Shown: positions 15,736 through 59,232 of the stretch, piece after piece | Layout of the letters: each line of letters starts with the position of its first letter | Numbering within the stretch: position 1 is the first letter of the stretch | DNA from: Scleroderma bovista | Taxonomy: Eukaryota > Basidiomycota > Agaricomycetes > Boletales > Sclerodermataceae | Assembly (NCBI GenBank): GCA_037178675.1 | Contig: JAYMGJ010000233.1 | Span: 26,893 to 90,892, forward strand | DNA length: 64,000 bases | Direction of reading: 5' to 3' | Position numbers and translations under genes: made by a program | Notes under the pieces: model-generated | The model's database searches: none | Told to the model about the DNA's origin: nothing | What the model saw: only the letters and a program-made list of their open reading frames with translations

Positions 15736-15818
15736 GGTTATGAGCCCTGATTGCTCATTCTAGGTGAGTACTCAATTCATATATCGACGAAACAAATCTG
15801 TTGTCTTGCTCTACCCCT

Positions 15819-17576
15819 ATGTCGTCGCAAGAAAATATCGAACAAGTGTTGATGGCGATGTTAATGGACGAGAATGCCAATACGAACGTAAATACGAATG
15901 TTATGCCCACGGAAGAGGAGACGTACGAACCTCCTCCTCCCCCATATATGCAAAGTTGCTTTCTCGGAGCACTTGGCAGCTGGAAAATGTCGGAGCCGCT
16001 TGACGATACGAACTGGGTCACATGGAAGGGGCAGATGACCTCGATGCTTCGTGTTAATAAAGTTTGGGGTCACTGTGATGGGACCATTGTCCCCCCTGAA
16101 GTGAACGAGCCTCGTGCTTTCGACAAGTGGGCTACCGCCGAAGAGGTAACAAAGTTGCTAATTTCGGGAAACCTAAAGGCTGCGCAATTTGTTCATATTG
16201 CGCAGGCCGTTACGGCCAAGCAAATGTGGGATAACCTCACTGCTGTCCACGAGATGTGCGGACAGCAAAGCATCATGGCGCTACGTCGTACCCTTTACCA
16301 TACAAAGGCTGTTGAAGGCGACAATATTACCGCGCACGTGAATACAATGCGCTCGTACCAGGCGACCCTTCATCAGATGGGCTCGAAGGTAAATGACGAA
16401 GACTTTAAGAGCATTTTAGTTTCTTCGTTGCCCATCACATGGGATGCCTTTACAGCCTCGTATCTCGGCTCTCAGACTGGGAATGCAGTCATGACTTCAC
16501 AAGAACTCGTCGCCATCATTCGTGACGAGTATAATCGAAGGAAGACTGTGCCTGGCACTGAAGAGGGCCAAGATGAAGGCAACTCGTCTCTGACGATGAC
16601 GGCACAGCCGGCGACAGGCCCGCGGGGGAAGAAGAGAGCTCGTGAGGAGAAGAAGGAAAAGAGTGGATCGAAGAAACGTACCTGTGCTATTTGCTTCCGC
16701 GACAATCATGTCACGGACGATTGCTTTCATAAGGGGAAGCCCAAATGCAACAATTGCGGGAAACTTGGACATAAGGCTCCTGATTGTTGGAGCCCAGCCG
16801 CGGGGAAGAAAACCAAAGGCGTTCCTACAAAAGGTGGTAAGCGTCGAAAGGTTGAGCGTACACAACAGGTACGCGATGTAAAGGAAGACAAAGAGATGAC
16901 GGACGCTACGTACGTCACTCAACAACATATATCGCCCGACAATACTGATGCGATTACTTCTGATTCGTGGTTGGCTGACTCAGCCACCTCTTTGCACATA
17001 TCAAATAAAAGAGAAGCTTACCGGTGTTTTACTCCACTCCATACACACATAAAAGGAGTCGGAAATGTACTTGTACCTGTTGAAGGGAAAGGTTCCGTTG
17101 AGCTCAAAAGTCGGGTTAACGAAAAGAATATAACAATTGTCTTACCAAATGTATTATATGTTCCTAGTGCTCCAAATAGTCTTGTCTCGTTGACGCGACT
17201 TGATGAGAGTGGTGGACGTGCCACTATGGGAAACGGAATCATACAACTATATGATAAAAATCAAATTTTAATTGCTGTTGGACAACGAGTTGAACGAATG
17301 TACTTACTTAACGTTTCCATGGCGACGCCGCCACAAGATTCCTCAGCGACCAAAACAGTCCTATTTACTTGGGCCAATTGGCACCGCCGATTCGGGCATG
17401 TGGGTATTAGTGGGTTACAACGAACGTTCTTAAATGTAACTTCATCTGACTCACCTATGACTACCTGTGAGGCATGTATACAAGCCAAACAAGCCCGTGC
17501 ACCGTTTCCGAGACATGCTGAACATTGTGCTCGGAACACGGGGGAATTGACCCACACAGACTTGTGGGAGGCATGA
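15819..17576 (+). CDS. Copia Gag-protease-integrase (first part)
   Basis: I take the ATG at 15819 as start (MSSQENIEQ). The UBN2-type gag region, with WKMSEPLDDTNWVTWKGQM, leads to a CCHC knuckle CNNCGKLGHKAPDCW near 16750. The aspartic protease motif is WLADSATSLHIS, the GAG-pre-integrase block is WHRRFGHVGISGLQR, and the integrase zinc motif region has CEACIQAKQARAPF. The frame closes at a TGA (17574-17576) directly after THTDLWEA, where copia integrases normally continue. The same frame is open on the other side, so this looks like a CGA to TGA change that has recently inactivated the polyprotein. Confidence 0.9.
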   Translation: MSSQENIEQVLMAMLMDENANTNVNTNVMPTEEETYEPPPPPYMQSCFLGALGSWKMSEPLDDTNWVTWKGQMTSMLRVNKVWGHCDGTIVPPEVNEPRAFDKWATAEEVTKLLISGNLKAAQFVHIAQAVTAKQMWDNLTAVHEMCGQQSIMALRRTLYHTKAVEGDNITAHVNTMRSYQATLHQMGSKVNDEDFKSILVSSLPITWDAFTASYLGSQTGNAVMTSQELVAIIRDEYNRRKTVPGTEEGQDEGNSSLTMTAQPATGPRGKKRAREEKKEKSGSKKRTCAICFRDNHVTDDCFHKGKPKCNNCGKLGHKAPDCWSPAAGKKTKGVPTKGGKRRKVERTQQVRDVKEDKEMTDATYVTQQHISPDNTDAITSDSWLADSATSLHISNKREAYRCFTPLHTHIKGVGNVLVPVEGKGSVELKSRVNEKNITIVLPNVLYVPSAPNSLVSLTRLDESGGRATMGNGIIQLYDKNQILIAVGQRVERMYLLNVSMATPPQDSSATKTVLFTWANWHRRFGHVGISGLQRTFLNVTSSDSPMTTCEACIQAKQARAPFPRHAEHCARNTGELTHTDLWEA

Positions 17577-18096
17577 ACCATTGGCCACAATGGAGCCAAA
17601 TATTTTCTTTCGTTTGTCGACGATCACAGCCGCTGTGTGGCAATCGAGTTCCTGAAAACTAAAGATCAGACCGCCAGTAAAATAAAAGGTTATGTTGCGT
17701 ACCTAGAACGTCAGTATGACATGCAACCTAAGGCTTTTAGAGCCGATAATGGCGGGGAATATGTGAACAAAGACCTCGTAAACTGGTGTGAGTTGAAAGG
17801 AATAAAATTTGAATATACAGCTCCACACTCACCAGAGCAAAACGGAGTTGCTGAGCGCATGAATCGAACTTTGGCCGAATTGATGCGTGCGATGTTGATC
17901 GCGTGGGAAGTACCGACTTTCCTCTGGCCAGAAGCTGTCGCGCATGCCGCATACTTGAGAAATCGTACCCATACTTGGGCGCTTGATCGTTCGACACCAC
18001 TTGAATCTTGGTGTGGTCAACGGCCGAATGTGTCTCACTTGCAAGAGTTCGGATCACCTGTTTGGGTGTTGATGGAAGGTCAAAATGTGTCTAAAC
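17577..18096 (+). pseudogene. Copia integrase core, after stop and before foldback
   Basis: Continues the polyprotein frame after the TGA: FLSFVDDHSRCVAIEFLK (first catalytic Asp), FRADNGGEYVNKDLVNWC (second Asp), and HSPEQNGVAERMNRTL with the catalytic Glu. All DDE residues of the integrase core are present. It ends inside QNVSK, where the 9-bp duplication marks insertion of the foldback; the frame resumes at 25106. Confidence 0.88.
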
Positions 18097-18169
18097 CACA
18101 TAGTTCAGTCAAAAGCCCTCGCAAAAGTGGGTCATCGGACATGTACATTTGCCTGTAAAGGTGGGACTA

Positions 18170-19085
18170 GCCGACGCCGGCCGATGCTCGCAAAACTGGG
18201 CCAGGCCGATGTTTTCTATTATTGCAAATCTAGTACAGGCCTGAGGGACATTAATCACTGCAAAACTGGGATGGGCTGATGTTTGATAAAAATTGCAGAA
18301 CTGGGACTGGTGGGAGCATTGTAAAACTAGGTCAGGCCTGTTGAACAAAAAAATTGACAAGTGTTGCAAAGCTGGGACTGGCCGATGTTGTAGATACATT
18401 GCAAAACTGGGTCAGGCCTGTTGAGAAAAAAGTTGTCAATTACTGCAAAACTGGGTCAGGCTGACATGGCAGAATGGGGTCAGGCCTTTTGAGGAAAAAA
18501 TTGTCAAGCATTGCAAAACTGGGTCAGGCTGACATTGTATATACATTGCAGAACTGGATCAGGCCTGTTGAGAAAAAAAGTTGTCAAGCATTGCAAAACT
18601 GGGTCAGGCTGACATTGCAGAACTGGGTCAGGCCTGTTGAGGAAAAAGTTGTCAAGCATTGCAAAACTGGGCCAGGCTGACATTGCAGAACTGGGTCAGG
18701 CCTGTTGAGGAAAAAGTTGTCAAGCATTGCAAAACTGGGCCAAGCTGACATTGCAGAACTGGGTCAGGCCTGTTGAGGAAAAAGTTGTCAAGCATTGCAA
18801 AACTGGGTCAGGCTGACATTGCAGAACTGGGTCAGGCCTGTTGAGGAAAAAGTTGTCAAGCATTGCAAAACTGGGCCAGGCTGACATTGCAGAACTGGGT
18901 CAGGCCTGTTGAGGAAAAAGTTGTCAAGCATTGCAAAACTGGGTCAGGCTGACATTGCAGAACTGGGTCAGGCCTGTTGAGAAACAAAGTTGTCAAGTAC
19001 TGCAAAACTGGGTCAGGCCTGTTGAGCAAAAAAGTTGTCAACCATTGCAAAACTGGGTCAGACCCAAAATTGATACACATTGCAG
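18170..19085. repeat. Satellite array 1, left arm (68-bp unit)
   Basis: Head-to-tail units with AACTGGGTCAGGCCTGTTGA, then AAAAAGTTGTCAAGCATTGC, then a shorter half unit AACTGGGCCAGGCTGACATT. The period is 68 bp in the regular part (18620-18970); outer units are more diverged. Confidence 0.92.
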
Positions 19086-20860
19086 AATTAAATTACTGTG
19101 CTGACTACCAAAAATGTGGACCATTGATTAGGCAATATTGTGTACTGTTGGTGTGATAGTGTTGACTACCAAAGATGTGCAGCTTGGATTATCTAATATT
19201 GTGTTCTATTGGTGTGGTAGTGCTGATTACCAAAAATGCGGACTATTGATTAGCCAATGCTGTGTAGTGTTGTTGTTGTAGTGTACTACCAAAAATGTGT
19301 AGTATTGATTACCTAATGTTGGGTACTCTTGGTGTGGTAGTGCTGATTACCAAAAATGCGGACTATTGATCAACCAATATTGTGTGGTGTTGTTGTAGTG
19401 TACTACCAAAAAAAGTGTAGTACTGATTACCTAATGTTGTGTAGTATTGATGTGATAGTGTTCATTACCAAAAATGCGGACTGTTGATTAGCCAATATTG
19501 TGTAGTGTTGTTGTTGTAGTGTACTACCAAAGATGTGTAGTATTGATTATCTAATGTTTTGTACTGTTGGTGTGGTAGTGTTGATTACCAAAAATGTGTA
19601 GCTTGGATTACCTAATGTTGTGTACTGTTGGTGTGGTAGTGCTGATTACCAAAAATGCGAACCATTAGCCAATGTTGTGCAGTGTTGTTGTTGTAGTGTT
19701 GATTACCAAAAATGTGTAGCTTGGATTACCTAATGTTGTGTACTGTTGGTGTGGTAGTGCTGATTACCAAAAATGCGAACCATTAGCCAATATTGTGTAG
19801 TGTTGTTGTTGTAGTGTACTACCAGAAATGTGTAGTATTAATTACCTAATGTTGTGTACTATTGATGTGGTAGTGTTGATTACCAAAAATGCGAACTATT
19901 GATCAACCAATGTTGTGTAGTGTCATTGTTGTAGTGTTGATTACCAAAAATGTGTATCTTGGATTACCTAATGTTGTGTACTGTTGGTGTGGTAGTGTTG
20001 ATTACCAAAAATGCGGACTATTGATTAGTCAATATTGTGTAGTGTTGATTACCAAAAATGTGTAGTTTGGATTACCTAATGTTGTGTACTGTTGGTGTGG
20101 TAGTACTGATTATCAAAAATGCGGACTATTGATTAGTTGTTGTAGTGTACTAACAAAAATGTGTAGTATTGATTATCTAATGTTGTGTACTGTTGGTGTA
20201 GTAGTACTGATCATCAAAAATGCGGACTATTGATTAGTTGTTGTAGTGTACTACCAAAAATGTGTAGTTTGGATGACCTAATGTTGTGTACTGTTGGTGT
20301 GGTAGTGTTGATTATCAAAAGTGCGGACTATTGGTTAGTCAATATTGTGTAGTGTTAATTACCAAAAATGTGTAGTTTGGATTACCTAATGTTGTGTACT
20401 GTTGGTGTGGTAGTGTTGATTATCAAAAATGCGGACTATTGATTAGCCAATATTGTGTAGTTTGGATTACCTAATGTTGTGTACTGTTGGTGTAGTAGTG
20501 CTGATTATCAAAAATGCGGACTATTGATTAGCCAATATTGTGCAGTGTTGTTGTTGTAGTGTACTACCAAAAATGTGTAGTATTGATTACCTAATGTTGG
20601 GTACTCTTGGTGTGGTAGTGCTGATTACCAAAAATGCGGACTATTGATCAACCAATATTGTGTGGTGTTGTTGTAGTGTACTACCAAAAATGTGTAGTAC
20701 TGATTACCTAATGTTGTGTAGTGTTGATGTGATAGTGTTGATTACCAAAAATGCGGACTATTGATTAGGAAATGTAGTGTAGTGTTTGTGTATTGGAGTT
20801 GATTACCAACATTGTGTAGTTTTCATTAACTAAATTCAGTAGTGTCAACACTTGATTACA
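19086..20860. repeat. Satellite array 2, left arm (about 120-bp higher-order unit)
   Basis: Alternating blocks AAAAATGCGGACTATTGATT, AGCCAATATTGTGTAGTGTT, GTACTACCAAAAATGTGTAG and ATTACCTAATGTTGTGTACT. The AAAAATGCG block recurs about 13 times in this arm. Confidence 0.92.
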
Positions 20861-21702
20861 TAAGCTCTCCAAGCGCCACTACTCCCAAAACATTACCATA
20901 TTTGGTCAATAGTTGACTTCAAATATTCCCACCTTTGTTCTGGTACTTTTCTTCCCCTTCTGTGCTTCATCCCTGGTCCAAATGTACTGTAAAAATGATT
21001 CTGTATCCCATATTACCCTATAGGATCATCATTGGACCCTCATCTAAATGTGCAAGGGGCTCTGTATCCCCAGAGAGTAGTGCAGGCTTAGAAACACCAA
21101 AAATGTTCGCATTTTTGATACATTCAACATATCAGCTTAAAGAATGCATCCCCATACAGGGGATATATGTACCTACAACATATTTACAGTCCACAGCATG
21201 GGATCCATGTCCTGGTGCGATGTTTTATGTTTTTCCTTTGCAAACATATCACCATGGCAGGCAATTACTAGGAGGTATGGTGGCTACTGGATGGTCTCCA
21301 GTGGTATTACTATGCTATACCAAAGTCCCAATACAATCTAGTGAGCAGCTGACCACTCCAAGAGGAGCAGCATAGAAAACAGCACTTTCATAACAATAGG
21401 TGCTGTATGATCCTCCAGGTCAGGTATGCACAATATGACTATCTCAAAAGCTGGGGGATACCATACAGTAGTGGATACAATTTACTCAAGTCAATACCGC
21501 TTGATGTGGGGGAGGGAAGGGCACAATAAGATACAGAAGGCGTGGGAAAATACCCCACAAAATGCGGAGATATGCAAAAACATTACATATCACACAACAC
21601 ATAACATCTACTGACCTAGAAATGCTACCAACAGCCTACTAATATCACATAATGCTTATACTCAGCTGTTCCTGACATGCTTAGAGGCACAAATCATTCA
21701 AG
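20861..21702 (+). repeat. Foldback core, left arm
   Basis: Non-repetitive inner part of the arm; the reverse complement is 21789 to about 22630. A 146-codon frame (20935-21375) and a 62-codon frame (21426-21614) are open in both arms, but open frames in near-identical copies are not independent evidence of coding. A diverged copy at 37140-38000 keeps local similarity (IPFKGPYVSTTYH against IPIQGIYVPTTYL) but has stops. It also holds AAAAATGCGG sites and the palindrome AAAAATGTTCGCATTTTT near 21105. Confidence 0.8.
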
Positions 21703-21788
21703 GTTTGAAAAATGCGGAAATGTGCTACATCATATCAGTACTGCAGGTGCAAAGCTGCAGTGTATATGGACAGTAACAACATGTTCTT
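21703..21788. other. Foldback spacer (loop)
   Basis: About 86 bp between arms, unique in the window apart from one more AAAAATGCGGAAATGTGC site at about 21710. Confidence 0.7.
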
Positions 21789-22639
21789 GGTTCAAATGAT
21801 TTGTGCCTCTAAGCATGTCAGGAACAGCTGAGTATAAGCATTATGTGATATTAGTAGGCTGTTGGTAGCATTTCTAGGTCAGTAGATGTTATGTGTTGTG
21901 TGATATGTAATGTTTTTGCATATCTCCGCATTTTGTGGGGTATTTTCCCACGCCTTCTGTATCTTATTGTGCCCTTCCCTCCCCCACATCAAGCGGTATT
22001 GACTTGAGTAAATTGTATCCACTACTGTATGGTATCCCCCAGCTTTTGAGATAGTCATATTGTGCATACCTGACCTGGAGGATCATACAGCACCTATTGT
22101 TATGAAAGTGCTGTTTTCTATGCTGCTCCTCTTGGAGTGGTCAGCTGCTCACTAGATTGTATTGGGACTTTGGTATAGCATAGTAATACCACTGGAGACC
22201 ATCCAGTAGCCACCATACCTCCTAGTAATTGCCTGCCATGGTGATATGTTTGCAAAGGAAAAACATAAAACATCGCACCAGGACATGGATCCCATGCTGT
22301 GGACTGTAAATATGTTGTAGGTACATATATCCCCTGTATGGGGATGCATTCTTTAAGTTGATATGTTGAATGTATCAAAAATGCGAACATTTTTGGTGTT
22401 TTTAAGCCTGCACTACTCTCTGGGGATACAGAGCCCCTTGCACATTTAGATGAGGGTCCAATGGTGATCCTATAGGGTAATATGGGATACAGAATCATTT
22501 TTACAGTACATTTGGACCAGGGGTGAAGCACAGAAGGGGAAGAAAAGTACCAGAACAAAGGTGGGAATATTTGAAGTCAACTATTGACCAAATATGGTAA
22601 TGTTTTGGGAGTAGTGGCGCTTGGAGAGCTTATGTAATC

Positions 22640-24310
22640 AAGTGTTGACACTACTGAATTTAGTTAATGAAAACTACACAATGTTGGTAATCAACTCCAA
22701 TACACAAACACTTCACTACATTTCCTAATCAATAGTCCGCATTTTTGGTAATCAACACTAAACAATAATGGCTAATCAGAAGTCCGCACTTTTGGTAATC
22801 AACACTACACAACATTGGGTAATTAACACTACAGATCTTGGGTAGTGCACTACAACAATACTACACAATAATGGCTAATCAACAGTCCGCATTTTTGGTA
22901 ATGAACACTATCACATCAACACTACACAACATTAGGTAATCAGTACTACACATTTTTGGTAGTACACTACAACAACACCACACAATATTGGTTGATCAAT
23001 AGTCCGCATTTTTGGTAATCAGCACTACCACACCAAGAGTACCCAACATTAGGTAATCCAAACTACACATTTTTGGTAATCAACACTACACAATATTGAC
23101 TAATCAATAGTCCGCATTTTTTGGTAATCAACACTACCACACCAACAGTACACAACATTAGGTAATCCAAGCTACACATTTTTGGTAATCAACACTACAA
23201 CAATGACACTACACAACATTGGTTGATCAATAGTTCGCATTTTTGGTAATCAACACTACCACATCAATAGTACACAACATTAGGTAATTAATACTACACA
23301 TTTCTGGTAGTACACTACAACAACAACACTACACAATATTGGCTAATGGTTCGCATTTTTGGTAATCAGCACTACCACACCAACAGTACACAACATTAGG
23401 TAATCCAAGCTACACATTTTTGGTAATCAACACTACAACAACAACACTGCACAACATTGGCTAATGGTTCGCATTTTTGGTAATCAGCACTACCACACCA
23501 ACAGTACACAACATTAGGTAATCCAAGCTACACATTTTTGGTAATCAACACTACAACAACAACACTGCACAACAACAACACTGCACAACAACAACACTGC
23601 ACAACATTGGCTAATGGTTCGCATTTTTGGTAATCAGCACTACCACACCAACAGCACACAACATTAGGTAATCCAAGCTACACATTTTTGGTAATCAACA
23701 CTACCACACCAACAGTACAAAACATTAGATAATCAATACTACACATCTTTGGTAGTACACTACAACAACAACACTACACAATATTGGCTAATCAACAGTC
23801 CGCATTTTTGGTAATGAACACTATCACATCAATACTACACAACATTAGGTAATCAGTACTACACTTTTTTTGGTAGTACACTACAACAACACCACACAAT
23901 ATTGGTTGATCAATAGTCCGCATTTTTGGTAATCAGCACTACCACACCAAGAGTACCCAACATTAGGTAATCAATACTACACATTTTTGGTAGTACACTA
24001 CAACAACAACACTACACAACATTGGCCAATCAATAGTCCGCATTTTTGGTAATCAGCACTACCACACCAAGAGTACCCAACATTAGGTAATCAATACTAC
24101 ACATTTTTGGTAGTACACTACAACAACAACACTACACAACATTGGCTAATCAATAGTCCGCATTTTTGGTAATCAGCACTACCACACCAATAGAACACAA
24201 CATTAGATAATCCAAGCTGCACATCTTTGGTAGTCAACACTATCACACCAACAGTACACAATATTGCCTAATCAATGGTCCACATTTTTGGTAGTCAGCA
24301 CAGTAATTTA
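22640..24310. repeat. Satellite array 2, right arm
   Basis: Inverted counterpart of 19086-20860 with different copy number and order. It includes a local expansion of AACAACAACACTGCAC at about 23550-23610 not present in the left arm. Confidence 0.9.
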
Positions 24311-25020
24311 ATTCTGCAATGTGTATCCATTTTGGGTCTGACCCAGTTTTGCAATGGTTGACAACTTTTTTGCTCAACAGGCCTGACCCAGTTTTGCAGT
24401 ACTTGACAACTTTGTTTCTCAACAGGCCTGACCCAGTTCTGCAATGTCAGCCTGACCCAGTTTTGCAATGCTTGACAACTATTTCCTCAACAGGCCTGAC
24501 CCAGTTCTGCAATGTCAGCCTGGCCCAGTTTTGCAATGCTTGACAACTTTTTCCTCAACAGGCCTGACCCAGTTCTGCAATGTCAGCCTGACCCAGTTTT
24601 GCAATGCTTGACAACTTTTTTTCTCAACAGGCCTGATCCAGTTCTGCAATGTATATACAATGTCAGCCTGACCCAGTTTTGCAATGCTTGACAATTTTTT
24701 CCTCAAAAGGCCTGACCCCATTCTGCCATGTCAGCCTGACCCAGTTTTGCAGTAATTGACAACTTTTTTCTCAACAGGCCTGACCCAGTTTTGCAATGTA
24801 TCTACAACATCGGCCAGTCCCAGCTTTGCAACACTTGTCAATTTTTTTGTTCAACAGGCCTGACCTAGTTTTACAATGCTCCCACCAGTCCCAGTTCTGC
24901 AATTTTTATCAAACATCAGCCCATCCCAGTTTTGCAGTGATTAATGTCCCTCAGGCCTGTACTAGATTTGCAATAATAGAAAACATTGGCCTGGCCCAGT
25001 TCTGCGAGCATCGGCCGGCG
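24311..25020. repeat. Satellite array 1, right arm
   Basis: Inverted counterpart of 18170-19085, shorter by about three units. Confidence 0.9.
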
Positions 25021-25105
25021 TCGGCTAGTCCCACCTTTACAGGCAAATGTACATGTCCGATGACCCACTTTTGCGAGGGTTTGTGACTGAACTACCTGTC
25101 TAAAC

Positions 25106-27141
25106 TTGAGCCAAAAAGCGAACAACATACCTTTGTGGGGTTTGCGGATGGCCCCAAGGCAGTGAGATACTACAACAAAAGGACGCACCAAGTGTGCGTG
25201 TTCCACAATTATCGTTTTCCAAATTTGGAAACTTCTACTCACCCTGTTGCCAGTCATGAGCCGCTTGTACCATGCGTGTCGAGCGAGGGGGAGAGAGAGA
25301 CCATACCACCAGTAAATGAACATGAGAATATGGATCATATAAATAAAGAAGCAGGTATTGGTCATAAACGAAAAATTGGGAATAACGAAGAAAATAGCAC
25401 TATAAGGCGTAGTAAACGACCAAAGTCTACACATGACTACAGATTACTTGACGATCCATGGGTAGATGACGACGAACTAAGTATGTTATCTGCTAATAGA
25501 GTGTACACTACATATTGTGACACTCCTATTGCGCCCGATAATCCAAAGTCCCTAGCTGAAGCTCGGAGATCTCCTGAATGGCCTGATTGGGAAAAGGCTG
25601 TACAAGCCGAACTCAATCAATTACATAAAATGGGTACCTGGATACTGGTAAACCCTCCGAAAGAGCGTACACCCATATCTAATAAATGGGTACTCAATAA
25701 GAAATATGATAAAGAGGGCAATTTATTGAAATTTAAGGCATGTTTGGTAGCCAAAGGCTATTCTCAGATGCCAGGTATGGATTATACAGATACATTTGCT
25801 CCAGTAGTAAGACTGGAAACTATTCGTACCTTATTAGCTCTTGCCCTATCAGAGAATTGGGAGATCCAACAGATGGATGTTAAGGGGGCTTATTTAAACG
25901 GTAAAATAAAAGAAGAATTATATATGAATCAGCCCGAAGGATATGATGATGGCTCAGGCCATGTTTGCCGTTTAATAAAATCCTTATATGGATTAAAACA
26001 AGCAGGGCGTGAATGGAACCTTGAATTTAATCAACAGTTGGAGTCTCATGGCTGGACACCTTCCATGGTAGATCCATGTGCTTACTCCCAACATAAAACA
26101 GAAGGGATTGAGATCATTACTGTATGGGTCGATGACCTACTCCTTTTTGCTAGCAATCCAGCACTCATGAAAGATCTAAAACATGAGTTACAATCTACCT
26201 TTGAGATTACTGATCTTGGAGAACCTTCCAAAATTGTAGGCATCGAAATTGATCGCGATCGAACTAATAATACTTTAGTAATTTCTCAGAAACAATTTCT
26301 GGGAATGATCCTCCAAAAACAGGGTATGGCAGATGCTAACTCTGTGGGCATGCCTATGGATCCTAATATAAAACTCAATCCTTCTGAAGGGGAGTCAGAG
26401 GGTTATCAGCAAGGGAATTGCCCTAAAAGTTTTGCATCCGATTATCAGCAGGAGAATTTCTCCAAAAGTTTTGCATCTTTGATTGGCTCATTAATGTATT
26501 TAGCTGTGGCTACTAGGCCTGATATAGCATATGCTGTCTACAGATTGGGTTCATTTATGGCTAATCCCAATATGTCCCACTGGACAGCAGCTAAATGTAT
26601 TTTACGTTATCTCTCAGGAACCAAAGACTATGGTATAACCTATAGGGTTAGTAGGCCTGAACCTGGAGAGAATCACTTTCTAGGATATTCAGATGCCAGT
26701 TATGCTAATAATGATGATCTTACCTCTGTCTCTGGGTATGTATTTCTTATGAATGGGGGAGCTATTTCTTGGGGATCTAAGAAGCAGACTGATGTTGCTC
26801 TATCCTCAACTGAATCAGAATATATTGCCTTAGCAGATGCAACCAGAGAAGCAGTCTGGTTATGTAATCTGTTAAAGGGGTTGGAATTTAACCAACCAAA
26901 ACCCATTTTAATTTATGGTGATAATAGTGGCTCTTTGGCTATAGCCAAAAATCCCCAATATCATAAAAGAACTAAGCATTTTGATACAAGGAATCATTAT
27001 ATTAGGCAGAAGATAAAAGAAGGCATAATAGAGGTAAAATATTGTCCTACTGCTAACATGACAGCAGATATATTTACTAAACCTCTACCTAAGCCAAAAC
27101 ATCAGTTACACTCAGCAGAATTAGGGCTGACCCCTCTTTGA
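25106..27141 (+). CDS. Copia reverse transcriptase / RNase H (second part of pol)
   Basis: The frame resumes with SKLEPKSEQHTFVGFAD just after the foldback, then the linker with KRPKSTHDYRL. Reverse transcriptase motifs are WVLNKKYDKEG, QMDVKGAYLNGKIKEELYM, SLYGLKQAGREW and the catalytic YxDD-equivalent VWVDDLLLFA. RNase H has YSDASYANNDD, SSTESEYIALADATREAVW and YGDNSGSLAIAKNP, and the end is DIFTKPLPKPKHQ. The stop TGA at 27139-27141 lies eight bases before the 3' LTR. No internal stop is seen, so this half is intact although separated from its start. Confidence 0.93.
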
Positions 27142-37139: not shown

Positions 37140-38240
37140 TCGCATTTTTGACATTTAGTCAGTACAAACACAGGAATGAAGCATACAGGAAGTCCATTGA
37201 GTTAGAAACTCAATGACATCATTAGTAGAATGCCAAGTGCTGTGTGTTGTGTGATATGGCAAATGTTTGATATGTTTTGCAAGTCTCCGCATTTTTTGAT
37301 ACATTTTCCCACGCCTTCTGAATGTTGTTTTCATTCCACCTCTTCACCACAATGCAGCATCAACCTGAGGGTATTGTAGTAGATACTATATGATATCCCC
37401 CAGCTGCTGAGATACTCAGATTGATGACACCTGATCTGGAAGCCCATAGAGCCCCTATTATTGAAAAAATGCGATTTATTCAGTTCCTCATCTTGTAGTG
37501 GTTAGATGGCCAACATATTTGATACACATATGGTCATAGTATAGTACCACCATCCTAGACCATCTGACATGCATCATCCCTCTTGTTAATGGCCTGTCAG
37601 CAGAATATGTGTACAGGAGAAGAACATGAATCAGCACATCAGAGGGGCCCACCTTGTGCCGAGTGGCTATGATATGTTGTGGACACATATGGTCCCTTGA
37701 AGGGGATGTAGTTTCCAAATGGATATGTCAAATGGTTCAAAAATGCGGACACTTGTGTGTTTTTACCCCTATAGTATTCTCCATTTATCCTGAGGCCCTT
37801 ATACACTGACATAAGGATCCAGTTGGGCTCTTATACACTAATATGACATGCAGGATACCATGTACACTGCATATGGGTCAGGGATGAAGCCCAGGGAGGC
37901 AGGGGAAGTGCATACCAAGGGTGGGAAATATTGCCAGTCAAATGTTGCCATATATAGACAGATTCTGAGTGGAGTGACACTGCTGATGCTTATGTAATCA
38001 TGTTTGGACATGTGCTAATGAATACTACCACATGTGCTAATGAATACTACCACATGTGCTAATGAATACTACCACATGTGCTAATGAATACTACCACATG
38101 TGCTAATGAATACTACCACATGTGCTAATGAATACTACCACATGTGCTAATGAATACTACCACATGTGCTAATGAATACTACCACATGTGCTAATGAATA
38201 CTACCACATTTCCTAATGAATGCTACGCAATTTTGCTAGT
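37140..38240. mobile_element. Diverged half copy of the foldback family
   Basis: Collinear with the right-arm core and start of its satellite (21890-22640). Matching islands are TCCGCATTTT, TTTTCCCACGCCTTCTG, ATGATATCCCCCAGC, GGATGAAGC and GCTTATGTAATCA. It keeps AAAAATGCG-type sites near 37140, 37285, 37466 and 37740. In place of satellites 1 and 2 it carries a different 22-bp satellite. No second inverted arm is seen in the window. Confidence 0.75.
38015..38212. repeat. 22-bp satellite, about nine copies
   Basis: Near-perfect head-to-tail units containing GTGCTAATGAATACTACC plus ACAT, located where the foldback family normally carries its satellite arrays. The CTAATGAATACTACC phrase resembles the GATTACCAAAAATG blocks only loosely. 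Confidence 0.92.
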
Positions 38241-53530: not shown

Positions 53531-56500
53531 TTAATTTACTGATGACTCTATCCATCTGGTCCCATGAACCATCCTGCTCAAGTCAAGTTTGGTATGTTTT
53601 CCAATAATAAATAAGCTATAGGGTGAATATAATGATGGTCTTGGCATATATGATGGAACCCATAGAAGTAGGTGACCTTTTGGGTTAACAATCCATGCAC
53701 CACTGTCTAACTCTGATAAATCCCTGTCATTAAAGTCACTTTCTGAGATATACACATTGGAATCCAGCAGGGCATGGGATGGGATTGAAGAATAGCAAAT
53801 TGATTGAGAGGTATGTCTTGTCATGTTGTCAGAGCACAGATTAACTGCTGTGTCTGTAGAACAATCCCACATATGTATGGTCTTGTCATTTGAACCAGAA
53901 ACAACTCTCTGACCATCTGGTGAGAATGCTACTGAGAATATTGTGTCAGTGTGCCCTGTGAGAGGGCTATGTAGCTGCAGTCCAGTCTCAGCATCCCACA
54001 AACATATAGTCTTGTCAGATGAACCTGATGCAATCCTCTTTCCATCTGGTGAGAATGCTACTGACCATACTGAGTCAGTGTGCCCTGTGAGAGGGCTACC
54101 CAGCTGCAGTCCAGTCTCAGCATCCCATAAACATATGGTCTTGTCTTTGGAACCTGATGCAACCCACCTCCCATCTGGTGAAAATGCTACTATGTAGACT
54201 GATTCAGTGTGCCCTATGATAGGACTTCCCAGCTGTAGTCCAGTCTCAGCATTCCACAAACATATGGTCTTGTCAGATGAACCTGATACAACCCTCTTCC
54301 CATCTGGTGAGAATGCCACTGACCATACTGAGTCAGTATGCCCTGTGAGTGGGAGACCAAACTGCAGTCCAGTCTCAGCATCCCACAAATATATGGTCTT
54401 GTCTTTGGAACCTGATGCAACCATCTTGCCATTTGGTGAGAATGCCACTGAATATACTAAGTCAGTGTGCCCTGTGAGAGGGCTACCCAGCCAAAATCCA
54501 GTCTCAGCATCCCACAACCATATGGTCATGTCTTTGAAACCTAATGCAACTCTCTTGCCATCTGGTGAGAATGCCACTGACCATACTGAGCCAGTGTGCC
54601 CTGTGAGAGGGCTACCCAGCTGCAGTCCAGTCTCAGCATCCCAAAAATATATAGTCTTGTCTTTGGAACCTGATACAATCCTCTTTCCATCTGGTGAGAA
54701 TGCCACTGACCATACTGAGTCAGTGTGCCTTGTGAGAGGGCTACCCAGCTGCAGTGCAGTCTCAACATCCCACAAACATATGGTCTTGTCAGATGAACCT
54801 GATGCAATCCTCTTTCCATCTGGTGAGAATGCTATTGACCATACTGAGTTAGTGTGCCCTGTGAGAGGACTACCAAACAGCAGTCCAGTCTCAGCATCCC
54901 ACAAACATATGGTCTTGTCAGAGGAACCTGATGCAACCATCTTTCCACCTGGTGAGAATGCCACTGAGTATACTGAGTCAGTGTGCCCAGTGGGAGGGCC
55001 ATCAAACTGCAGTCCACTCTCAGCATCCCACAAGCATATGGTCTTGTCTTTTGAACCTGATGCAACCATCTTGCCATCTGGTGAGAATACCACTGAGTAT
55101 ACTGAGTCAGTGTGCCCTGTGAGAGGGCTACCCAGCCAAAATCCAGTCTCAGCATCCCATAAACATATGGTCTTGTCAGAGGAACCTGATGCAATCTTCT
55201 TTCCATCAGGTGAGAACACCACAGACCGTACTGAGTCAGTGTGCCCTGTGAGAGGGCTACCCAACTGCAGTCCAGTCTCAGCATCCCACAAACATATGGT
55301 CTTGTCTTTTGAACCTGATGCAATCTTCTTTCCATCAGGTGAGAACACCACTGACCATACTGAGTCAGTGTGCCCTGTGAGAGGGCTATCCAGCTGCAGT
55401 CCAGTCTCAGCATCCCACAAACATACTGTCATGTCTTCAGAACCTGATGCAACCCTCTTGCCATCTGGTGAGAATGCCACTGACCATACTGAGCCAGTGT
55501 GCCCTGTGAGAGGGCTACCCAGCTGCAGTCCAGTCTCAGCATCCCACAAACATATGGTCTTGTCAGAGGAACCTGATGCAATCCTCTTGCCATCTGGTGA
55601 AAATGTAACAGAGGTCACCCAATTATCATGCCCCCTAATTGTTAGCTGAAGGTTTGGCCAACATGGTTCTCCTCCATCAACAATTTGGGCCAGATTTGAG
55701 TACTTGGGTGAGAATTGCTCATAAATGATGGACTGTACTGGAGAGAATGGCAGAGCTGAGATATACAAGTGTGGGGTGCTTTCCATGATGGCACCACCAA
55801 ATGCTCTGACAAACTTGATGGCATCTCTTGCTATTGCTGACACCTGTTTAAATGTATCATCTTTCTAAACATTCTCATTAGCAGTGTTGTTTGGGATCAA
55901 CTTCATAGTAAACATACCTCCAACCATGAAGCTATAGTGGCCAAGTGTGAGGGCACAACATTGAGCACCTTCAATAAGCTGAGTGCTTCAATCCAGAAGA
56001 GCAGTTTGTCCTTCAGCAGCAATTCTATCTCTTGTGCCACCTTCCTCACAAATTGTGTCTCCTGAATATGAATGGCCCAGAGTCGACAAGCATAAGACAA
56101 ATGAGCAGGGATGTATCTATGAACTCGCCAGTCCAGGTCAGTGACCTTCGAGTTCGGTAGGTACGAGGTTTCCAATTGACAGATATTGAAACACAGCCCA
56201 GTTTGCATGACTCGAACACAAGCCCATACAAGCTGACAATGGACATCTTCCATTTTGATAGCAAACTCCATACTCCGTGTAGGGTTGGTCAAGAAATCGT
56301 AGAATGATGCATGTAATGCACGGACTGGGGTTGATACATCAGCAATGCCACTCAGTAGGGCACCCATCGGGTTGAGGATTGCCTTGACATCAGAAACATC
56401 AATGTCAGGGAAGTTTCGCCGCATTGCATTCAACGACACCACTGGGAGAGGCTCCTGGGTCCACAGTATTTGCCGCATCACAGAACGGAATCGTGCAAGT

Positions 56501-59232
56501 GCCTTCGGCTTGTTCTCGACGATGTCTCGCAAAATGGTGAGGTACATCTCATCCAAAAGTCCCTTGCTCTCCCCAGGCGAAACAGAGATCAGCTCCTCGT
56601 ATCGCTCCATGGCTGTGAACCCAGCCTTGTGTGATTTGATGAACTCGCAAGCCAACCGAGCCCACTCGAACAACCCATCTGCCAGCTGTACGAGGCATGA
56701 GATTTCTTCAGTAGAGAAACGATCCATCAGTCTTCCTAGCTGATCAGAAACGTACAGACGAATATCGTGTTCTGTACTCGTGATAGAGATGTCGTCCATG
56801 GATTTGGATATGATATGGGGAACATCCTGCAGGACCTCCATGATGTCAGGTAAAGGGCGGGATGTAATGAGAACACGATAGCTGGACGGGAGCTGGGCAA
56901 CCTGTGCAGAAGCGAGAACGCTGAGAATATGACTCCGAGAGGCCTCAACACCGGACTCATCGAGTGCATCAATCACAATGACCACCCATCCAACCATAGA
57001 CACTGCAGCTTTGGAAATGGGATCAAAAATGAACTTTTGCCACTGCTGCTTCACATCGCGCGTGGTGGATAGCGCTTTATCGCCTGCAATGACCTCGGCT
57101 AGAATCCGCTTGAAAGTAGGATCACGATCAGCAAGATCATGTGCAATAGTGGTGAATATCTTTTCGTGGCGACGTTCCGCCTGTTGATCGCGGGCGAAGC
57201 AGAAACACGACCCAAGCACTCCAAGAGATTTGAACCAGTTAGCGATCGTATGGGCGATGGCCGACTTCCCTTTGCCTGCCTGGCCATAGAGCCACAACAC
57301 CCGAGAAGTATCAGGCTCTGAATTATTGATCCAGTCTACAATGTCCGCCAGGATATCAACTCTCGTGCCTTCTAAGCAGAGTTTGGTGGTGTCTAATCCA
57401 GCACCACCTGCATAGGCGAGCTGGCTAAGGGTAGCCTTTTGATCTGCATGGTTAAATTGCTTAGGACAAGTCACAACCGTGTGAAACCCATCCTTACCTA
57501 TGGCTGAGACACCATCTTTAATATTATCGATGCTGTTTAGGGCATGACGAATAGCATCTTCCACGAGACGGACGCCATTTAGGGCACGCCGAATTTCCTT
57601 GTGGATGTCACCGACAACGTCGTAAATGTTCCCAACATCAGCTGAGATGTGGTCAGCCTTGTCGACGAGCCCGTGAACAGCCACCCATGTATCCCGACAT
57701 ATAAGGTCCCGACACTGCTGCGTCAAGACATCCAGCGCATTGCCATAGGTAGTAATCGCAATAGTAGTTTCAGACAAAACATTCTTCAGCGTTCTTTGCC
57801 CTTCATAAAGACATTAGCCGAACATTGAACCTCAGATACGAGTATGACATACAAAAGCTTTTTGTTTTAGAATAGGACTGGATGAAAACCACGCAGTTGG
57901 GCATCAGTTTGGAGATTTCCGATAGAGGTTCCTTTATCTGGGCGACATTTGCGACGGTATGATCTTCGATGAGGAAAGCATAGACATGGCTGATTTTAGA
58001 CAAGAGAGCGACGACTGACTCGTCCATGGTGCTCTGTGCAATAATAGTCTATGCACATATTAAATATAGTGCAATCTCGTATAAACTTTGGGACATACCT
58101 GAGCGGCCCATGATAGTGCGCATAAAGCTAGTTTCGCATATGGGTGAATCTAAGCGCAATTTAGTGACGTGTGCGCCAAAGGAAAGAGGACGCACATTCG
58201 AAATTGTCTGGACAACGGAGATGAAGATTTTAATGGGTCGAAAACATGAATTCACAGTATCGAGCTGATCCGCAACGGATTGGCATGTATTCACAGTAGC
58301 GAACACCTTGCCCATGCTGTCCGGCATATCATTCATCTGCGACACGCCTTCTCGTGCAGCTTTGAGGCTTGTGACTAGGTGGCTCACATCATCATCACCA
58401 GTAGGAGAAACCTGAGGCCAGATGAGACTGCTGTGAATCTGAACTCGACCTCTTCTACACCTTACCTTGAGAGGATCGGGTATAGAATGCTGTGCAGGAG
58501 ACGAAGCCATGTTGGTGGTATTTATGACAAGATTGTCGAGACCATCCTTTCATTAATGAGATCCAAGTAAGATCAGTGCTGAATATTCGATGACATGCAC
58601 GTTAACCCACATTTTGAGCCTCCGAAGGAGGCACGTTTGCCGATATCTCAACTGCTAAGACGGGAGCACGCTGCACAGGAGTAGCAGTTGCGGGACCAAG
58701 TTCGGTTGGGATATTGGCATCGATGGCCTTGGTTTCGTGTCACCGCAGAGATCAGAACACAATGCAAGATAACATACTTGGCGCTGCATGAGTGCAATGT
58801 CTGCTGCGGATGTGCCAGAGACAGGCAGTATCACCTGCGGACGGGATTGCACAATCTACGCAGTTGACAGTCTCGCACCAACACAATGCGCCGTTGCACT
58901 TACCAAATTGATTGTATCTGGGTTTTGCTCGATGGGAGTGTTCCTTGAGGGGCCGCGAGAGAGGCCGAATAACTATGTATATTGCAGGGCATTTCAGTAT
59001 GGGCACCTAATATACCTGAAATGCATACCTCACGGCCATGAACCAAGGCGTCGAAAAACCTGTTCTGCTGGTTTGTACGGGAGTTGCCCCCAGGAGATCC
59101 CTGCTGTCCCTTCGGTTAGTTTGAAAAGAGACGGTTACTAAGGTGCGAATCTCCAAGCACCTCGGCAGCAAGATTCCGACTTTTTCCACGAAGAAATTTG
59201 AAAAGGTGGTTCTTTTTGCTACGTTCTGACAT
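53531..59232 (-). CDS. NACHT-WD40 (STAND/NLR-like) receptor, complete
   Basis: I start at 59232 (MSERSKKNHLFKFLRGKSRN) because every following exon joins in frame: a Gly/Asn-rich exon, LPVSGTSAADIALMQRQ, a Thr/Pro linker, SSPAQHSIPDPLK, FRPIKIFISVVQTIS, IHPYAKLALCALSWAAQ, and a helical exon ending KSF joined to WQRTLKN at 57826. The NACHT exon (55922 to about 57790) has P-loop GQAGKGKSAIA, Walker B VVIVIDALDES and sensor RVLITSRPLPD. A 52-nt intron leads to the last exon with 14 WD repeats of 43 residues, enough for two seven-bladed propellers, and a C-terminal tail. Proteins of this plan (HET-E/HET-D relatives) control non-self recognition in fungi; ligand unknown. The 3' part is CpG-poor, the 5' part CpG-rich. 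Confidence 0.88.
53860..55625 (-). repeat. Coding array of 14 WD40 repeats, 129-bp unit
   Basis: Units follow GHTDSVWSVAFSPDGK, then ASGSSDKTICLWDAETGLQL. Changes cluster at a few positions: after DSV (W, Y or R), KR/KK/KM before the next strand, S/K in GSxDKT, and GLQL/GFWL/GLLF. Units 1 and 14 are the most diverged, the inner ones almost identical, as expected under unit exchange. Confidence 0.95.

Follow-up and report, generated by a model that had tools for sequence, protein, structure and literature searches.

The 64,000-nucleotide stretch of the Scleroderma bovista genome that we analyzed (assembly GCA_037178675.1, contig JAYMGJ010000233.1, positions 26,893 to 90,892 of the forward strand; referred to as the window) contains a foldback element of 7,002 bp, in which two long inverted arms surround a short loop. 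The foldback is a recently amplified, non-autonomous element. In the explanation we consider likely, its ends come from a KDZ (Kyakuja-like) transposon, a KDZ-type transposase acting in trans moves it, and the two arms of a copy recombine and convert each other.

The element, its insertion site and its copies

The element in the window is real, and its boundaries were corrected by comparing its tips and flanking duplication with those of other copies (Table 1). An earlier reading made from the DNA letters alone (the sequence-only reading) had described inverted arms of more than 3.3 kb, each built of a 68-bp array, an array of ~120-bp units and a core. Both the arms and their layering were confirmed, with 97-99% of positions matching in the five longest blocks of complementarity. 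The spacer it gave as 86 bp is a loop of 96 nt, and the length of "exactly 7.0 kb" is a coincidence: 24 pairs of family tips outside KDZ elements enclose between 2,775 and 12,545 bp. From the outside inward, each arm consists of a short end, the 68-bp array, the ~120-bp array, whose unit is composed of two ~61-bp halves, and the core; the numbers of array units differ between the left and right arms of the window copy. Structurally the element belongs to the foldback class. Its long inverted ends contain tandem repeats and enclose a short middle; it has a target-site duplication, copies elsewhere in the genome, and no transposase gene of its own, as judged from stop-free runs (the longest spans 152 codons, on both strands; no family search was run on the element).

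The sequence-only reading had also reported a 9-bp target duplication (TGTCTAAAC). A direct duplication is present, but its true length is 7 bp (TCTAAAC): the TG preceding the right copy is the element's own terminus, because other copies end in CTACCTG or CTATGTG followed by 7-bp duplications. The uninterrupted site, i.e., a 30-base flank pattern with a single TCTAAAC, occurs at four other places in the genome (two exact, two with one mismatch), and the same pattern read backward does not occur. We take these four places, known to us from the pattern match, to be other copies of the copia-type element that the foldback has split.

All genome searches covered the 51.8-Mb assembly and scored the best candidates only. 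A search with the core, which the sequence-only reading had suggested, found matches at no fewer than 39 places (68 matches; the best 40 of 180 candidates were scored). The tip pattern CANNTAGTTCAGTCA occurs 111 times, compared to once for its backward control; 100 of these 111 places, ending at contig C712, were listed. The 86 tips that were read comprise 83 of the 111 and three right tips of KDZ elements, whose sequence is slightly different. The main kinds among them are the L tip (CACATAGTTCAGTCAAAAGCCC) and the R tip (CAGGTAGTTCAGTCACAAACCC). Tips paired on the same contig in 27 instances, three of which are KDZ elements. An exact 7-bp duplication flanks 12 of the 24 remaining pairs, and in all 12 the two tips are unlike: eleven combine an L with an R tip, and one, on C199, combines CAGATAG with CACATAG and represents a relative known to us by its tips. 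The claim of a mobile foldback with shared ends and target duplications is thus borne out by the genome copies, their 7-bp duplications and the empty site; copies without shared ends or duplications, the outcome the sequence-only reading had named as speaking against it, are not what the genome presented.

Several individual copies deserve mention. The C199 relative (L059/L060, C199:18337-29797) is 11.5 kb long, has related tips and a perfect 7-bp duplication (CTCCATC), and no KDZ match falls on C199 among the matches listed. The elements on C472 and C361 were considered as autonomous elements and rejected; judged by eye from their open frames, they are family elements with nested retrotransposons inside. 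Contig C92 carries two foldback copies, L011 (C92:114781) and L012 (C92:22260), ~92 kb apart and with the same left flank; the second copy runs to the contig end, and the pair is either a duplication or an assembly overlap.

Table 1. Positions in the window of the foldback element, its parts and the element it interrupts
Feature	Position	Strand	Basis or remark
Whole foldback element	18097..25098	.	tips and duplication compared with other copies; empty site at four other places
Left copy of 7-bp target duplication TCTAAAC	18090..18096	+	
Right copy of 7-bp target duplication TCTAAAC	25099..25105	+	
L tip CACATAGTTCAGTCAAAAGCCC	18097..18118	+	tip comparison
R tip CAGGTAGTTCAGTCACAAACCC	25077..25098	-	tip comparison
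Left arm, 3,602 nt	18097..21698	+	
Asymmetric loop, 96 nt	21699..21794	+	exact in 20 of 23 loci searched
Right arm, 3,304 nt	21795..25098	-	
68-bp array, left arm	18317..19061	+	nine GGGTCAGGCC in the outer 969 nt, all inward; candidate transposase-binding array
68-bp array, right arm	24338..24878	-	six GGGTCAGGCC in the outer 969 nt, all inward
~120-bp array (two ~61-bp halves), left arm	19098..20833	+	
~120-bp array, right arm	22725..24301	-	
Core, left arm	20861..21698	+	
Core, right arm	21795..22632	-	
Copia-type host element, split by the insertion	15801..27141	+	open frames 15801-17576, 17637-18158 and 25135-27141; named by eye, no family search

Likeness to KDZ transposons

The genome contains at least 166 matches to the KDZ domain (150 of 317 candidates scored). 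Six copies form a subfamily whose members are 97-100% alike, and in five of the six a tip of the foldback family lies downstream, on the inner side, within 10 kb (counted over 150 of the 166 matches and 100 of the 111 tips). The copy on C324 encodes KDZ, CxC2 and Tet_JBP domains, and the stretch bearing them is 99-100% identical in C74, C127 and C252. The nearest relatives of the KDZ transposase proteins are found in Amanita muscaria (66-70%) and in Boletales. Both tips, CACATAGTTCAGTCAC and CAGGTGATTCAGTCAC, were read in three nearly identical full-length KDZ elements (L032/L036 on C324, L034/L038 on C127 and L041/L039 on C252; 16,714, 20,228 and 20,204 bp, respectively). Over 80-115 nt the foldback tips resemble those of the KDZ elements at 85-88%, and they share the same asymmetry; the two ends of the KDZ element match each other at 91% over 80 nt.

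The motif GGGTCAGGCC provides a second link. It occurs nine times in the L-end of the KDZ element (2.4 kb), always pointing inward, as it does in the outer part of both foldback arms (Table 1). The KDZ interior (11.5 kb) and the KDZ R-end (2.8 kb) contain no copy, the remaining 56 kb of the window contain one, and shuffling each tested zone 2,000 times at constant composition never gave more than one. A KDZ-type transposase, either this one or a related one, would bind the 68-bp arrays and cut at the tips.

The tips also bear on the origin of the element. The two KDZ ends differ at nine positions within the first 40; the R tip of the foldback is of the R-type at positions 3 and 4, of the L-type at 6, 7, 17, 18 and 26, and does not discriminate at 23 and 24. 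Together with the presence of the L-end motif array in both foldback arms, this mixture is most simply read as the L-end having been copied over the R-end. An inverted copy of the L-end sequence of a KDZ element would have replaced the other end except for its outermost bases (CAGG), and the last few bases of the R-end would have been kept because cutting needs two unlike ends. The actual parent of the foldback may be distinct from the C324-type copies.

According to a 2025 survey, Kyakuja, a branch of KDZ transposons with TET genes, has 7-bp duplications, 5'-CA..TG-3' termini and no terminal inverted repeats (TIRs) (PMC12730594, section 3.2.1). The foldback has the 7-bp duplication, in 12 of the 24 non-KDZ pairs, and the CA..TG termini, and its partner element has KDZ and TET/JBP domains; however, inverted arms of 3.3-3.6 kb mean that TIRs are present, and the KDZ transposase resides in the partner and not in the foldback. 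We do not file the foldback as a Kyakuja element; what we infer is that it works with a KDZ transposase.

Two observations concern the KDZ copies themselves. On C74 (L033:3978-4085) one foldback arm, the complete loop plus 6 nt from the second arm are followed by a 3.4-kb stretch and then by the KDZ gene. The 3.4-kb stretch lies inside another KDZ copy, and the junction is a break at the base of the hairpin. We weighed whether this locus is an ancestral element with a single arm and rejected the idea: the similarity to the KDZ right end stops ~336 nt short, and no matching duplication was found. On C324 the gene beside the TET/JBP gene (L032:9349-9998, which also aligns in C74, C127 and C252) begins with MARTKQTAKKSSGGKAPR, which comes close to the tail of histone H3; a weak PHD-like stretch comes next (E 0.069, below the cut-off). 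We found 25 relatives of this gene; among the six that were fetched, one from Boletus edulis begins with MARTKQTAKLSSGGVAPR and two have looser versions. A transposon-borne mimic of the histone tail is possible.

Likeness of the two arms within a copy

The cores of the two arms are identical in 14 of the 17 copies with both cores, whereas the mean difference between cores taken from different copies is 2.8-3.0 sites. Over the arms of 13 full copies the differences amount to 1.49 per kb within a copy and 3.68 per kb between copies, and none of 20,000 random re-pairings of arms gave a value as low as 1.49. Some rows were dropped or are doubtful: L015 has no exact loop, L019 has a single arm, the permutation did not include L017, and L027 (on C244) was kept, though its right tip departs from the family after ~19 nt. 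Five of seven core variants that are private to one copy are found in both of its arms. In L026, a copy with a correct duplication, both arms lack ~1.36 kb relative to L023 and break at identical coordinates; the likeness between them is 99.88% over 2,455 nt. The loop lies in one orientation in six and in the other in five of the 11 copies with unlike tips (L027 being doubtful); among those flanked by a duplication the numbers are two and three.

The likeness of the arms, the mirrored private changes and the two loop orientations suggest that the arms of a copy probably recombine and correct each other: gene conversion would spread changes to both arms and so let the palindrome persist, and an occasional crossing over between the arms would invert the loop. 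Mutual copying of this kind could explain the regularity of so large a hairpin, which had puzzled the sequence-only reading. A stronger version, in which copying is part of the life cycle, appears doubtful to us. It holds that each move, while under way or once completed, involves a hairpin or broken intermediate that is repaired with one arm serving as template for the other; the family would then spread as a self-correcting palindrome, and only the outermost bases of the two unlike ends would keep their identity, since cutting needs both.

Weighing the explanations

Several observations weigh against a KDZ-derived foldback with mutually correcting arms. Twelve of the 24 non-KDZ pairs have no duplication, including three pairs with two L tips and the doubtful pair on C244. 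Four stray flanks match flanks located on other contigs (~0.1 expected for random 7-mers by our own arithmetic), which together with the missing duplications means that halves were exchanged, either in vivo or in the assembly. None of the three full KDZ copies has a 7-bp duplication, which either counts against the link between foldback and KDZ elements or indicates rearrangement. The tips of the foldback are similar but not identical to the KDZ tips, and a KDZ element whose ends are identical to those of the foldback is absent among 100 of the 111 tips and 150 of the 166 KDZ matches. Kyakuja elements are described as lacking TIRs (PMC12730594), and the foldback carries no gene and has inverted arms of 3.3-3.6 kb. 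Of 47 private variants counted over whole arms, 17 are present in both arms and 30 in one, some of the latter clustering in the arrays, where the alignment is weak; private gaps of at least 20 columns are mirrored in five cases and one-armed in nine, with gap sizes in the arrays depending on the alignment. The arms of the window copy, moreover, are the least alike of the 13 full copies (4.89 differences per kb) and mix variants of two subgroups.

An explanation that accepts KDZ-derived ends and attributes the likeness of the arms to the assembly, through one shared path or alike polishing, with the loop orientation guessed, draws on the pairs without duplication and the stray flanks, a sign that the assembly of this family may be scrambled. 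We think it unlikely, although it deserves to be taken seriously: the correctly duplicated copies (the window copy, L025, L026 and L028) show mirrored private variants with their tips still unlike, and the arms of many copies differ in array units. Palindromic chimeric long reads exist, and the whole palindrome might be such an artefact. This is extremely improbable, given that the same asymmetric 96-nt loop recurs exactly in most of the loci searched (Table 1), that the tips are unlike, that 7-bp duplications flank both arms together, and that an empty site exists.

Other transposases have to be considered as well. Mutator duplications are usually 8-11 bp long. For Mu itself the duplication is 9 bp. 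The Mutator-like foldback proposed by the sequence-only reading, a type to which most foldbacks described so far belong, agrees with the long inverted arms and their inner repeats, and the genome has three matches to the MULE domain (C740, C182 and C24); however, all 12 exact duplications measure 7 bp, short of the Mutator range, similar termini sit on elements with a KDZ transposase, and neither C24 nor C182 has a tip among the 100 of 111 tip places listed, C740 lying beyond these. We regard this origin as very unlikely. There is similarly little to recommend movement by a P-superfamily transposase: Galileo has foldback-like TIRs and 7-bp flanking sequences (PMC3573991), but the shared tips and the motif sit on KDZ elements, and the genome has no match to PF12017, which is a weak argument as no control genome gave a match either.

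Galileo of Drosophila is nevertheless similar to the foldback in its form, in the tandem repeats of its long inverted ends, in its 7-bp target sites, in ends that are 98-100% alike within a copy, in the recombination and conversion proposed for it, and in having chimeric copies without matching 7-bp sequences (PMC3573991). It differs in its P-type transposase, whereas our element has ends like those of KDZ elements, and here the private changes mirrored between arms and the two loop orientations were counted. The Foldback (FB) elements and Tetris of Drosophila likewise have long inverted ends of tandem repeats around a short middle, and Tetris has no transposase gene; its duplications are 8-10 bp and its authors assign it to Mutator (PMC4079207), in contrast to the 7 bp and KDZ-type ends of our element. 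KDZ1-3 of Cryptococcus are KDZ transposons with TIRs (139-241 bp), but have 4-8-bp duplications and a CxC1 instead of a CxC2 domain, and the available sections mention no foldback form (PMC12810828). Inverted arms that recombine or convert each other, and a middle that is inverted, are also described for insertion sequences (IS), which invert by end-to-end recombination (PMC3004938), and for human Y palindromes (PMC3723533); these are bacterial insertion sequences and chromosome arms, not a family of foldback transposons.

Elsewhere in the window, reading frames at 53531-57777 resemble, by eye, a NACHT-WD40 gene, whose WD repeats correspond to a tandem array of 129-bp DNA units (13.5 copies, 85% matches), and a 22-bp tandem array of 10 copies (98% matches) is located at 38008-38226.

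We found no earlier description of a KDZ foldback in the titles and abstract openings that our searches of open-access literature listed. If the origin from a KDZ transposon is correct, KDZ would join Mutator and P as a transposon group that gave rise to the foldback form, and the notion that this form originated repeatedly would be supported. The 68-bp array would then be a candidate binding array for KDZ transposases.

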